Source: an uncultured Acetobacteraceae bacterium (GTDB lineage: Bacteria; Pseudomonadota; Alphaproteobacteria; Acetobacterales; Acetobacteraceae). Taken from it: a stretch of DNA of 64,000 nucleotides. The notes beneath the pieces are model-generated. The model saw nothing but the letters and a program-made list of their open reading frames with translations, was not told the origin of the DNA and did not search any database. Position numbers and translations under genes: made by a program. The DNA lies in NCBI GenBank assembly GCA_903895595.1, contig CAITUP010000104.1, positions 1 through 64,000 of the forward strand. The letters run 5' to 3'. Of the stretch, positions 9,271 to 19,430 are shown piece after piece. Positions within the stretch are counted from its first letter, which is position 1. Each line of letters opens with the position of its first letter.

Positions 9271-9780
9271 TCAATCCAGCTCCAACCCCATCATCGTCGC
9301 ATCGTGGTAAATGCCGTCGATCAGCGCCATGCGCCGGTCGACACCGTACGAACGGAAGCCCAACGACCGGTAAAATTGTTCGGCCCGCACGTTCCGCGTA
9401 TTCACGGTCAGCCGTAACGACACCACCCCGGCGTCCCGCGCCGCCGCGATCGCCGCTTCCACCATCGGCCGAGCAACGCCGGAACGACGGTGTTCGGGGG
9501 CGACGTAGATGCCCGCCAGTTCTGCGCGGTGGCGCATTTTCAGCTTGTCCGGCACGTTCAAACTGGTGATTCCCGCCAATATACCATCGATAAATCCGCC
9601 GAACGTTCCGCTGGGCGCCGTACCGATCCGCCGCGCGAAGAAATCCAGCGGCTCAACCCCCTCGTCCTCATAGGCACTGGAAAACGCGTCGGGATGGTCC
9701 CGCAGCGCGCGCAGACGCATGTCTCGGTATGCTGGCAGATCGGCCGGCGTCAGCCGCCGAGCGGTGACGGGGCCGGTCAG
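9271..9780 (-). CDS. GNAT-family N-acetyltransferase
   Basis: The protein has a full GNAT fold: ARRLTPADLPAYRDMRL (strand 1, helix 1), the acetyl-CoA loop region ELAGIYVAPEHRRSGVARPM, and NVRAEQFYRSLGF near the C terminus. The first ATG in the domain (9720) would remove the first strand. The likeliest start is therefore CTG 9780, which overlaps the coaBC stop as CTGA, or ATT 9786. The gene is therefore probably translationally coupled to coaBC. Substrate unknown; the start is uncertain. Confidence 0.72.
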   Translation of the reverse strand: MTGPVTARRLTPADLPAYRDMRLRALRDHPDAFSSAYEDEGVEPLDFFARRIGTAPSGTFGGFIDGILAGITSLNVPDKLKMRHRAELAGIYVAPEHRRSGVARPMVEAAIAAARDAGVVSLRLTVNTRNVRAEQFYRSLGFRSYGVDRRMALIDGIYHDATMMGLELD

Positions 9781-10970
9781 CGCAATGCCTCGGCGATGCG
9801 CTGCGCCAGGCGGCGAGCAACGGCGTCTTTTGCCAGACGCGGCCATGTTTCGACGCCGGCGGCGGAGATCAACTGCACCGCGTTCTCCGTCCCACCCATG
9901 ATCCCGGTTTCCGGCGAGACATCGTTGGCCACGATGAAATCGGCGTTTTTGCGCACGAGTTTCTCGCTGGCGTTGGCCATCAGATCGTCGGTCTCGGCCG
10001 CGAACCCCACCACCACGCGCGGCCGTCGCGGCCCGGCGGCGGCGATGGTCGCCAGAATGTCGGGGTTCGGCACCAGATCGAGCCCCGGCGCCGCCGCACC
10101 CGGCTTCTTCTTGATCTTGCCATCGGACGCGTTCGCGACCCGCCAATCCGCGACGGCGGCGGCGAACACCGCGGCATCGGCCGGCAGCGCGGTCTGACAG
10201 GCGTCCAGCATCTCGCGCGCCGTTTCCACGCGCACGATCGACACGCCCGCCGGATCCGGCACCGTCACCGGCCCGCTGATCAAGGTCACTCGCGCCCCCA
10301 GCTCGGCCAGCGCCGCCGCAATCGCATGCCCCTGTCGGCCCGAGGACCGGTTGGCGATGTAGCGGACCGGATCGATCGGCTCATGCGTGGGACCGCTGGT
10401 CACCATGATGTGGCACCCGGCCAGGGGTTGCTCGCGCGGCGTCAAAACAGCCTCGATCGCGGCCAGAATCTCCGCCGGTTCGGACATCCGCCCCGGCCCG
10501 AACTCATTGCACGCCATCGCACCTTCGTTGGGTCCGATCACGTGCACGCCACGAGCCTGCAACGTCTTCATGTTGGCCTGCGTCGCCGCGTGCAGCCACA
10601 TCCGCACGTTCATCGCCGGCGCCACCAGCACCGGCTTGTCGGTCGCCAGCAGCACGGTGGAGGCGAGATCGTCCGCGATTCCCGCCGCCATCTTGGCCAG
10701 AATATTCGCCGTCGCCGGCACCACGACCAGCAGATCGGCCGAACGGGACAGCTGAATGTGCCCCATTTCGTTTTCGTCGGTCAGCGAAAACAGATTCGAA
10801 AATACCTTGTTCTCGCTCAATGCCTGCAACGACAGCGGCGTTACGAACTGCTCGGCGTTTTCCGTGGTGACGCAAGCGACCCCATAGCCGGATTTCCGCA
10901 ACAGCCGGATCAGCTCCAGCGTCTTGAAGGCGGCGATGCCACCGGACACAATCAGCAAAACGCGTTTCAT
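9777..10970 (-). CDS. coaBC: Bifunctional phosphopantothenoylcysteine decarboxylase/phosphopantothenate-cysteine ligase
   Basis: CoaBC makes 4'-phosphopantetheine from phosphopantothenate in two steps of CoA synthesis. The N-terminal flavoprotein decarboxylase (CoaC) starts MKRVLLIVSGGIAAFKT and holds the PAMNVRMW motif and a catalytic histidine in MGHIQLSRSAD. The C-terminal ligase (CoaB) starts at MVTSGPTHEPIDPVRYIANRSSG and includes KIKKKP. The 397-residue length is normal. ATG 10970 overlaps the ubiE stop as ATGA, so the open frame further upstream is spurious. Confidence 0.95.
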   Translation of the reverse strand: MKRVLLIVSGGIAAFKTLELIRLLRKSGYGVACVTTENAEQFVTPLSLQALSENKVFSNLFSLTDENEMGHIQLSRSADLLVVVPATANILAKMAAGIADDLASTVLLATDKPVLVAPAMNVRMWLHAATQANMKTLQARGVHVIGPNEGAMACNEFGPGRMSEPAEILAAIEAVLTPREQPLAGCHIMVTSGPTHEPIDPVRYIANRSSGRQGHAIAAALAELGARVTLISGPVTVPDPAGVSIVRVETAREMLDACQTALPADAAVFAAAVADWRVANASDGKIKKKPGAAAPGLDLVPNPDILATIAAAGPRRPRVVVGFAAETDDLMANASEKLVRKNADFIVANDVSPETGIMGGTENAVQLISAAGVETWPRLAKDAVARRLAQRIAEALR

Positions 10971-17344: not shown

Positions 17345-17743
17345 TTAGATCTCAGCCTCGTAAGCAGCCCAGGCGCTCGGCGCCTCCCGCAGGAGGATTT
17401 TAAGGCCGGTCACCGAGCGGCCGCCGTCGCCCAAGCGCCCGTCCTTGCAGGCCGCGGCCAGCAAACCGTGGATGTGAAACGCCACGTATTCCGTCGTGGT
17501 ATTCTTGCCCGCGAACGCGGGGAGTTCGTCCAGGTTGCGATAGTCGATCGGCTCCAGCAGCGCCCGCAGCACGGTTTTCGCCAATCCGATGTCGACCAGC
17601 AACTGATGTGCATCCAGTGCGGGCGCGCGAAATTCCGCTTCGATGGCATAGGTCGCGCCATGCATTCTTTGGGCGGGGCCGAATTCTTCGCCCTGGAAGC
17701 TGTGGGCGATCATGATGTGGTCGCAGACGGTCAGGCTGAACAT
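17345..17743 (-). CDS. Divergent 6-pyruvoyl/6-carboxy-tetrahydropterin synthase family protein
   Basis: The 132-residue protein aligns with the T-fold PTPS/QueD family: MIAHSFQG (first zinc histidine H14), QRMHGATY (H28) and NTTTEYVAFHIH with the substrate-binding Glu85. The usual CxxxHGHxY motif is altered: the catalytic cysteine position is Ala24 and the third zinc histidine is Ala30. Normal PTPS or QueD chemistry is therefore doubtful. It overlaps the MDR gene by 13 bp and ends the RibD-like/MDR/PTPS trio. ATG 17743 is chosen because upstream residues have no family match. Confidence 0.78.
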   Translation of the reverse strand: MFSLTVCDHIMIAHSFQGEEFGPAQRMHGATYAIEAEFRAPALDAHQLLVDIGLAKTVLRALLEPIDYRNLDELPAFAGKNTTTEYVAFHIHGLLAAACKDGRLGDGGRSVTGLKILLREAPSAWAAYEAEI

Positions 17744-18690
17744 GGGTCCGATCCATAGGTGATGACATGGCAAAGGCCACCGGGTGCGACGATGGCTGGC
17801 ATGGCGGCCGGTAATGCCTCGAAGGCGGTGGGGCCTTCCAGCAAGGCGTCATACGCGGAATCGGCCAGTAAATCGAGCGCCATGGCTAGCCGTTCGGAGT
17901 GGCTCCGCCGTCCGCGCATCGGTAGTGCCACCGATCCGACCTGCGACGATATCAAGCGCAGTCGCTTCGCATGAAAGGCCTCGCCCAGCGGAACGGACGG
18001 TTCCCGGTCGCCATACCAGCTTGCTTCGATGATGCGTCCCTCGAACGCCGCATGGGACAGGGCCAGCCGAAGTCCAGCTTCGCTGGCGGACGCATGGACA
18101 ATCAATTCCTGCTCCAAAGGGGCATCGGGCGGCAGCGCGAAGCGACAGCCGAACCGCGTTGCCAAACCAGCGCGCGAGGGATCGATATCGACGATGGTGA
18201 CACATGTTCCGGGTATCCGCACCAGCAACGATGAGACGAGCAGTCCGACCACGCCAGCACCGATCACCAGGATGCGCTCGCCCGCGAGCGGGGCAGCGTC
18301 CCATACAATGTTCAGCGCCGTTTCCATATTGGCGGCCAGGACCGCTCGGTTGCTGGGCACCGCGTCCGGCACCGGCACGCACATGGATGCGGGCGCGTGA
18401 AACACGTCCTGATGCGGATTCAGGACGAACACCCGGCCTCCATCCGGAAGGTGGCCGACCGCACTGTAGCCGTATTTTACCGGAAACGGGAATGTCCCGG
18501 CCATCAGCGGGGCGCGCATCGCGTCGTACTGGTTGGGCGGCACCCGGCCGGCGAACACCAGCGATTCCGTGCCGCGGGATACGCCGGTCGCGATGGTTCG
18601 CACCAGCAACCCGTCGGATGCCGGAAGCGTTTCGGTCCGGATTGCGCCGGCGCCCGGGCCAGTCGTCCAAAACGCACGCGCCTGGGTCAT
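17731..18690 (-). CDS. MDR-family dehydrogenase of the pterin-like cluster
   Basis: This 319-residue medium-chain dehydrogenase has a GroES-like N half with SRGTESLVFAGRVPPNQYDAM and PFPVKYGYSAVG. A Rossmann NAD(P) motif follows (ILVIGAGVVGLLVSSLL), then a nucleotide-binding acidic residue in IVDID. The catalytic zinc cysteine expected near residue 40 is replaced by the SRGTES segment, so it is probably zinc-independent. It is coupled to the RibD-like gene (ATGA) and overlaps the PTPS gene by 13 bp. It probably reduces an intermediate of the same pathway; substrate unknown. Confidence 0.82.
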   Translation of the reverse strand: MTQARAFWTTGPGAGAIRTETLPASDGLLVRTIATGVSRGTESLVFAGRVPPNQYDAMRAPLMAGTFPFPVKYGYSAVGHLPDGGRVFVLNPHQDVFHAPASMCVPVPDAVPSNRAVLAANMETALNIVWDAAPLAGERILVIGAGVVGLLVSSLLVRIPGTCVTIVDIDPSRAGLATRFGCRFALPPDAPLEQELIVHASASEAGLRLALSHAAFEGRIIEASWYGDREPSVPLGEAFHAKRLRLISSQVGSVALPMRGRRSHSERLAMALDLLADSAYDALLEGPTAFEALPAAMPAIVAPGGLCHVITYGSDPCSA

Positions 18691-19430
18691 ATCCGCCGCG
18701 TCAGCGGGATATCGAGCAAGATGTCCGCCCCCATGTTGTGCGCCGTCCAGGAAAAACGCGCCCCCTCGGATAAGCGATTGACAGGGGGCAACGCGAAGGC
18801 TGGAACGCCTCCGCCCATTAGCAGGGGTGCCACGGTCACATGCATCCGGTCCAACGCACCGGCCTTTAGAAACCGGGCGACGGTGATGCCACCGCCCTCG
18901 ACCAGAATACGCCGAAGGCCCAGCATACCCAGCGTCTCGATGATGGCTTCGATGTCGAGTCCGGTCGTGCCACGGCGAACCGGGACGGCTTCGGCGGCCC
19001 CGACACGCGCGCCGCCAGGGGCATCGGGCGCACAGAATACCAATGTCTTTGGTCCGGCCTCGAACACGCGGTAGTGCGCGGACAGGCGCCGGTCCGTATC
19101 CAGGACGACGCGGACGGGGTTTGCCCCGGTTACCATCCGCGTGGTCAGTTGCGGATCGTCGGCTCGTACGGTCGCCGAACCCACGACCACTGCATCGCAC
19201 AGCGCGCGTAAGCGGTGTGTATGGGTCCGGTCCTCCGGCCCGCTGATCCAACACGATTCGCCATCCCGCGTCGCGATATACCCGTCCAGCGACTGGGCCG
19301 CTCGGCCGATCAGAAAGCAGCCGTCCGGCGCGGTGGGGGCAGCGCGCAGCGGTCCATAAAGCAGCCCATCCGCATCCGCTGAGGAGCGGCTGCCTAGCTT
19401 AGGGGAGAGATCCGAGTGCCGCCGATCCAT
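18687..19430 (-). CDS. RibD C-terminal-type reductase (dihydrofolate reductase fold)
   Basis: The 247-residue protein matches the reductase half of RibD: AAQSLDGYIAT, CWISGPEDRTHTHRLRALCDAVVVGSATVRADDPQLT (in parts), PVRVVLDTDRR, and ILVEGGG near the C terminus. The deaminase half of RibD is absent, so it reduces a pyrimidine- or pterin-like ribosyl compound with NADPH. An N-terminal extension of about 45 residues precedes the fold. It lies 48 bp downstream of flgN on the same strand and starts the coupled trio. It is unlikely to be the housekeeping riboflavin enzyme. Confidence 0.83.
   Translation of the reverse strand: MDRRHSDLSPKLGSRSSADADGLLYGPLRAAPTAPDGCFLIGRAAQSLDGYIATRDGESCWISGPEDRTHTHRLRALCDAVVVGSATVRADDPQLTTRMVTGANPVRVVLDTDRRLSAHYRVFEAGPKTLVFCAPDAPGGARVGAAEAVPVRRGTTGLDIEAIIETLGMLGLRRILVEGGGITVARFLKAGALDRMHVTVAPLLMGGGVPAFALPPVNRLSEGARFSWTAHNMGADILLDIPLTRRI

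Follow-up and report, generated by a model that had tools for sequence, protein, structure and literature searches.

The 64,000-nucleotide window analysed here (positions 1 to 64,000 of contig CAITUP010000104.1, assembly GCA_903895595.1, from an uncultured Acetobacteraceae bacterium) carries on its minus strand three overlapping genes that encode a RibD_C-type reductase, a zinc-less medium-chain dehydrogenase/reductase (MDR) and a protein of the 6-pyruvoyl-tetrahydropterin synthase (PTPS) family. In their order of transcription, RibD_C, MDR and PTPS, they are:

18687-19430, minus strand: RibD_C-type reductase, 247 amino acids (PF01872, E 2.5e-42)
17731-18687, minus strand: zinc-less MDR, apparently BchC-like with a polyol-dehydrogenase fold, 318 amino acids (BchC model, below its cut-off, and fold matches of the AlphaFold model)
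17345-17743, minus strand: PTPS-IV-type T-fold protein (PF01242, E 1.7e-20; FGPAQ; HGA replacing HGH)

All three open reading frames (ORFs) lie where the sequence-only reading had placed them, and the Pfam matches bear out the family labels that it gave to the reductase and the PTPS protein. The close coupling that it described is also there: the RibD_C gene ends and the MDR gene begins within one ATGA at 18687, and 13 bp (17731-17743) are shared between the ATG end of the PTPS gene and the 3' end of the MDR gene. The PTPS start is the ATG at 17743, with an alternative TTG start possible at 17773. Genes for a rod-binding protein and FlgI lie upstream on the same strand, and a DivIC septum initiator gene lies downstream.

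PF01872 is the sole Pfam family in the reductase, which has no N-terminal deaminase domain of the kind found in bifunctional RibD. Although its score against the archaeal diamino-pyrimidine reductase model TIGR01508 (119.3 bits) falls under the cut-off of 186.45, we retain a diamino-pyrimidine-reductase-like function because its best PDB match is such a reductase (6p8c, E 3.5e-29). It resembles 2,5-diamino-6-ribosylamino-pyrimidinone 5'-phosphate (APy) reductases, and may work on APy directly.

The MDR falls under the Pfam cut-offs (ADH_zinc_N, E 0.032), and its nearest curated models, BchC (NCBIfam TIGR01202, E 9e-11, 41.4 bits, cut-off 291.25), phosphonate-linked alcohol dehydrogenase and threonine/idonate dehydrogenases, all match below theirs. 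The PDB fold closest to its AlphaFold model (mean predicted local distance difference test score, pLDDT, 90.8) is L-idonate 5-dehydrogenase, with TarJ at ranks 11 and 17 (TMt 0.78). BchC oxidises a secondary alcohol, and TarJ and the idonate and sorbitol dehydrogenases act on polyols. The description of this protein as zinc-less stands: Ser37 and Tyr74 occupy, in all 20 rows of the MDR alignment (six of 26 prepared rows, with a marked stop, were omitted), positions that we take from the GHE-type motif to be those of the zinc-binding Cys and His, so the ligands of a zinc-dependent MDR are absent.

The PTPS protein reads FGPAQRMHGAT where PTPS-II (biopterin) enzymes carry CxxxxxHGH and QueD (PTPS-I) carries CxxxHGH. 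A PTPS was found in the window and in 94 of the 100 loci described below, and 78 sequences, the window's included, form the single ORF cluster that was aligned. The FGPAQ signature, which assigns the window protein to the PTPS-IV subfamily, is present in 73 of the 78; none has a Cys in the motif loop (residues 27-41), 77 have Ala40 where QueD has the last His of HGH, 76 have Tyr or Phe78, and Glu130 is invariant (78/78). We take residue 40 to be the position of the third zinc His, the loop to be that of the catalytic Cys, residue 78 to be that of the catalytic His and Glu130, by position, to be the pterin-anchoring Glu. On these assignments the window protein is predicted to lack one zinc ligand and the catalytic Cys and His while retaining the pterin-anchoring Glu. 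Because of these changed zinc and catalytic residues it is unlikely to be QueD, and its score against the QueD model TIGR03367 is 36.8 bits, the cut-off being 89.25. Its best PDB match is 3d7j, SCO6650 of Streptomyces coelicolor (E 2.4e-39), which in the alignment has the FGPAQ and HGA motifs in common with the window PTPS. The authors of that structure reportedly saw no zinc and found no PTPS activity.

The gene partners were followed into other genomes through the MDR, which turned up in 36 of the 289 genomes of the class that were sampled, possibly an undercount with at most seven first-look candidates scored per genome. One hundred MDR-bearing loci were compared, 20 from the 35 other MDR-positive genomes of the class (picked by score, contig room and spread) and the best 80 of at least 589 relatives; the MDR's own frequency among them carries no meaning, as all were found through it. 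The matches listed include Acetobacteraceae, Halomonas/Vreelandella, Zoogloea, Streptomyces, Actinomadura, Pseudonocardia and others; the nearest among them that bear a name are Acetobacteraceae and Rhodospirillales, to one of which the host would probably belong. Gene counts refer to the 79 loci in which the MDR is flanked by 7 kb or more on each side and come from profile searches with trimmed seeds and no overlapping matches.

The neighbourhood is conserved across Alpha-, Beta- and Gammaproteobacteria and Actinomycetes. A PTPS gene occurs in 77 of the 79 loci (on the strand of the MDR in 75) and RibD_C in 65 (on that strand in 44), and the arrangement of the trio is not due to chance. A GT4 glycosyltransferase is present in 74 loci, an S-adenosylmethionine (SAM) methyltransferase (MT) in 69, a CDP-alcohol phosphotransferase in 36, GTP cyclohydrolase II (GCHII) in 32, an LPG_synthase_TM membrane protein in 25 and a creatininase in 23; RibD_C, PTPS and GT4 stand together in 64. 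The statement in the sequence-only reading that such trios occur with glycosyltransferases in other bacteria thus proved correct, and the neighbourhood comparison that it called for finds the trio genes together elsewhere. Many Acetobacteraceae relatives have the order FlgI, rod-binding gene, RibD_C, MDR, PTPS, GT4, (MT), 3-oxo-tetronate kinase and decarboxylase.

Part of this association has been described. The FGPAQ subfamily of COG0720 has been named PTPS-IV (accessible parts of PMC5445326 and PMC5041015), and its neighbours are given, in the accessible part of PMC5445326, as PF00925 (GCHII) and RibD_C. The window protein shares the FGPAQ signature, and RibD_C is its overlapping neighbour here and a frequent one in the relatives' loci, part of which also hold GCHII; in this genome GCHII lies only on contigs C141 and C146, away from the trio. 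The association of PTPS-IV with RibD_C and GCHII is therefore already published; what is added here is the MDR, GT4, MT and creatininase, and the reduction of the set to the trio in this genus. We did not find the full neighbourhood (MDR, GT4 and MT with PTPS-IV) described in the literature covered by our search, outside of which most subscription papers fell. Nor did we find a demonstrated function of PTPS-IV there, only a remark, based on unpublished work, that it takes part in F420 synthesis (Zallot et al. 2016, accessible part of PMC5041015).

In this genome the gene order of the Acetobacteraceae relatives is kept up to PTPS and then ends, and other parts of the set lie elsewhere. A GT4 orthologue, 66% identical to a cluster GT4, is encoded on contig C80 and is followed, as in relatives, by kinase and aldolase/decarboxylase genes. 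A second GCHII, with Tyr at the position of Escherichia coli Tyr105, is found on contig C141, and a bifunctional RibD (deaminase and RibD_C domains) is encoded together with RibBA on contig C146. The operons of 11 congeners, out of 17 others that have the MDR, were compared: MDR and PTPS are present in 11 of 11 loci and RibD_C in 10, and GT4 was not found after PTPS in any, one stretch (L180) ending 1.7 kb beyond PTPS. The split of the operon thus probably goes far back in the genus. Of 33 genomes of the genus, 15 gave no MDR; among the 23 with a completeness of at least 90% and a contamination of at most 5%, the number is 10. The trio appears to be a shortened, dispersed version of a conserved pathway.

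Some further genes at these loci were considered. The pair after GT4 (stretch L062, 10460-12365) encodes 3-oxo-tetronate kinase and 3-oxo-tetronate 4-phosphate decarboxylase, as in many Acetobacteraceae relatives; we judged it a neighbouring catabolic module and not part of the pathway, though it travels with GT4. A creatininase orthologue is not claimed for this genome, where the best cluster matches of the two PF02633 genes are 33% and 40% identical (the latter over 101 residues only). A response-regulator-like ORF that overlaps the start of the second GCHII (stretch L063, 10848-11618) shares 60% identity with one located after the cluster in stretch L034, and is possibly a remnant of the ancestral arrangement.

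The GCHIIs of the clusters vary at the Tyr position. Among 34 of them there are 21 with Tyr, eight with Met and five with His, and all 13 Met/His proteins are from actinomycetes. A creatininase-family gene is present in all 13 Met/His loci and in nine of the 21 Tyr loci (Fisher p 0.0006 over 34 loci, which, as the sequences are related, is not a true probability); within the 15 actinomycete GCHII loci the figures are 13 of 13 and none of two (Fisher p 0.0095, kinship ignored). These figures no more than suggest that creatininase is linked to the GCHII switch residue. SCO6655 is said to give a formylated product because Met replaces Tyr, and the archaeal pair ArfA/ArfB consists of a formyl-retaining GCHII and a separate deformylase; by analogy, the creatininase pattern would fit a formyl-retaining GCHII in need of such a hydrolase. 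The actinomycete clusters mostly combine a Met/His GCHII with creatininase, often with no RibD_C in the stretch examined, whereas the genome of the window has a Tyr GCHII on another contig.

We propose, with a probability of roughly 45%, that the trio forms the core of a dedicated, GCHII-initiated small-molecule pathway leading to a glycosylated 2-amino-4-oxo-pyrimidine or pterin, in which a GCHII paralogue, RibD_C, the zinc-less MDR, PTPS-IV and GT4 (and in many cases MT) would act in that order. Starting from the conserved gene set, the active-site changes and the second GCHII and GT4 orthologue elsewhere in this genome, all of which are observed, we infer each chemical step as follows. The second GCHII should make ordinary APy from GTP because it keeps the Tyr. 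RibD_C would then reduce the ribose of APy to the ribityl chain without prior deamination, as happens in archaea and fungi. The MDR could oxidise the C2' hydroxyl, in the manner of the ribitol-5-phosphate/ribulose-5-phosphate interconversion of TarJ, to yield a 1'-deoxyribulosyl ketone, which would be the intermediate that GTP cyclohydrolase I reaches through an Amadori rearrangement. On PTPS-IV, the conserved Glu would bind the 2-amino-4-oxo ring and the chain would be held for closure, so that the free 5-amino group could close the ring to a dihydroneopterin-phosphate-like pterin. GT4 would add a sugar and MT would complete the product; in the actinomycete versions with a Met/His GCHII, the creatininase-family hydrolase might remove the retained formyl group. 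The specific version of this proposal, a pterin route independent of GTP cyclohydrolase I in which GCHII, RibD_C reduction and re-oxidation at C2' by the MDR replace the Amadori step, with closure on PTPS-IV, glycosylation and often methylation giving a new compound in bacteria from Acetobacteraceae to Streptomyces, is more doubtful than the general one, and we offer it tentatively.

Known pterin glycoside routes begin with GTP cyclohydrolase I and biopterin, whereas GCHII and RibD_C would head the pathway proposed here and its glycosyltransferase is of the GT4 type. The likeness to pterin glycoside synthesis in cyanobacteria and by the pteridine glycosyltransferase of Chlorobium (accessible part of PMC5683033) lies in a glycosyltransferase acting on a pterin, which is itself a proposal here. 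With the archaeal and fungal riboflavin steps from GTP through APy to 2,5-diamino-6-ribitylamino-pyrimidinone 5'-phosphate the trio would share a GCHII-type opening and a deaminase-free reductase, whereas the T-fold, MDR and GT4 partners belong only to this cluster; we noticed neither a deaminase nor a lumazine synthase among the genes labelled in the clusters, no separate search being made for either. According to a 2026 review of bacterial pterins, the synthesis of most biological pterins begins with GTP cyclohydrolase I; RibD, GTP cyclohydrolase II and PTPS do not occur in its accessible part (PMC13259868).

If the proposed chemistry is true, it would be a second bacterial way from GTP to the pterin ring, and an undescribed, widespread pterin-type glycoside would await isolation. 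PTPS-IV, a subfamily known from a crystal structure, is now tied to a small conserved enzyme set with a proposed order of steps, which suggests that the labels 6-pyruvoyl- or 6-carboxy-tetrahydropterin synthase would be wrong for PTPS-IV-type proteins.

Several observations weigh against the pathway as drawn. GCHII is missing from more than half of the 79 loci, and for this clade its place in the set depends on a dispersed paralogue whose neighbours are luciferase-like monooxygenase (LLM)-type oxidoreductases and which lies 38 kb from F420 genes. The fold matches of the MDR are at 13-18% identity and also include acryloyl-CoA and quinone reductases, and its zinc has been lost. Among PDB entries, the named relatives of GT4 are glycosyltransferases of the D-inositol 3-phosphate and phosphatidylinositol-mannoside kinds and not of a pterin kind, and MT was not found in this genome with a single distant query, a search that shows little. 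The creatininase pattern is confounded by phylogeny, the Met/His cases being all from actinomycetes. RibD_C, present in 21 of 21 Tyr loci, is missing from 10 of the 13 Met/His stretches (present in 3); the reductase step is therefore not always encoded in the cluster, which weighs against a single fixed scheme.

A role in F420 metabolism, in which the trio would supply or modify a precursor of the cofactor (the deazaflavin FO shares the ribitylamino-pyrimidine precursor), is unlikely but deserves serious attention. In this genome CofD and CofE score above their cut-offs, a CofC-like ORF is present and LLM oxidoreductases lie nearby, and the involvement of PTPS-IV in F420 synthesis has been stated from unpublished work (accessible part of PMC5041015). 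However, relatives of CofC, CofD, CofE and the LLM proteins were found in none of the 100 cluster loci (E<=1e-10). The cluster also occurs in Halomonas/Vreelandella, which are not known to have F420, and the established FO route is not known to need a PTPS, a GT4 or a methyltransferase. The F420 genes (CofE, CofD and CofC-like) and LLM-type oxidoreductases lie at about 64-69 kb of contig C141 (stretch L191, 5949-10612), and the second GCHII is about 38 kb from them on the same contig, beside further LLM genes (stretch L063).

Rather unlikely, too, is a product that never becomes a pterin, an 8-ribityl or open-ring aminopyrimidine nucleoside-like glycoside for which PTPS-IV would be a binding or ring-modifying enzyme. 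The loss of the canonical catalytic residues from PTPS-IV would suit such a role, as would those actinomycete stretches that may combine the lack of RibD_C with a putatively formyl-retaining GCHII and creatininase; Glu130 and the T-fold favour a bicyclic or pterin ligand, although a monocycle is compatible with them.

It is improbable that the trio is a duplicate of the riboflavin or folate branch, in which a further RibD reductase and a further PTPS would raise the supply of flavin, folate or biopterin. In its favour, RibD_C and GCHII are enzymes of the riboflavin type, and in one congener (stretch L183, 8542-13514) the trio stands divergently beside 37% and 30% matches that resemble ordinary ribD and ribBA. 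The trio reductase lacks the deaminase domain, however, and MDR, GT4 and MT are not known to have a role in riboflavin or folate synthesis. A simple riboflavin duplicate was judged unlikely with the bifunctional RibD and RibBA encoded together on contig C146.

The interpretation given in the sequence-only reading is supported in part, its glycosylated pterin being kept here as a proposed product. It had set the trio apart from the ordinary ribD and queD genes, and a trio holding the only copies of both would have counted against it. A separate ribD exists, the bifunctional copy on contig C146; a separate queD was not found, the trio's own PF01242 match being the only one in the genome, so the objection holds by half, on the queD side. 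This half loses most of its force because the trio PTPS lacks CxxxHGH and a congener has another, separate PTPS in which that QueD motif is present (stretch L163, about 9300-10100). No second PTPS was found here by the PF01242 search of a 99.56%-complete draft of 170 contigs, from which queD may be absent only as assembled, and QueC and QueF are present (contig C4, 47357-48010, stretch L149; contig C81, 25942-26172). We read this as a queD that is lost or missing from the draft, its replacement by the trio PTPS seeming unlikely. That the PTPS is the organism's QueD for queuosine, its operon partners being incidental, was rejected on motif and model score, with the zinc ligand, Cys and His replaced throughout the subfamily, and is kept as a very improbable alternative since no other PTPS was found. 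The congener with the separate CxxxHGH PTPS, in which the MDR was not found, also has an orphan PTPS-IV-like gene (stretch L162, 9495-9986) with FAPAQ and HGC, which adjoins an ORF that reads as D-2-hydroxyacid-dehydrogenase-like and genes that read as those of glycine cleavage.

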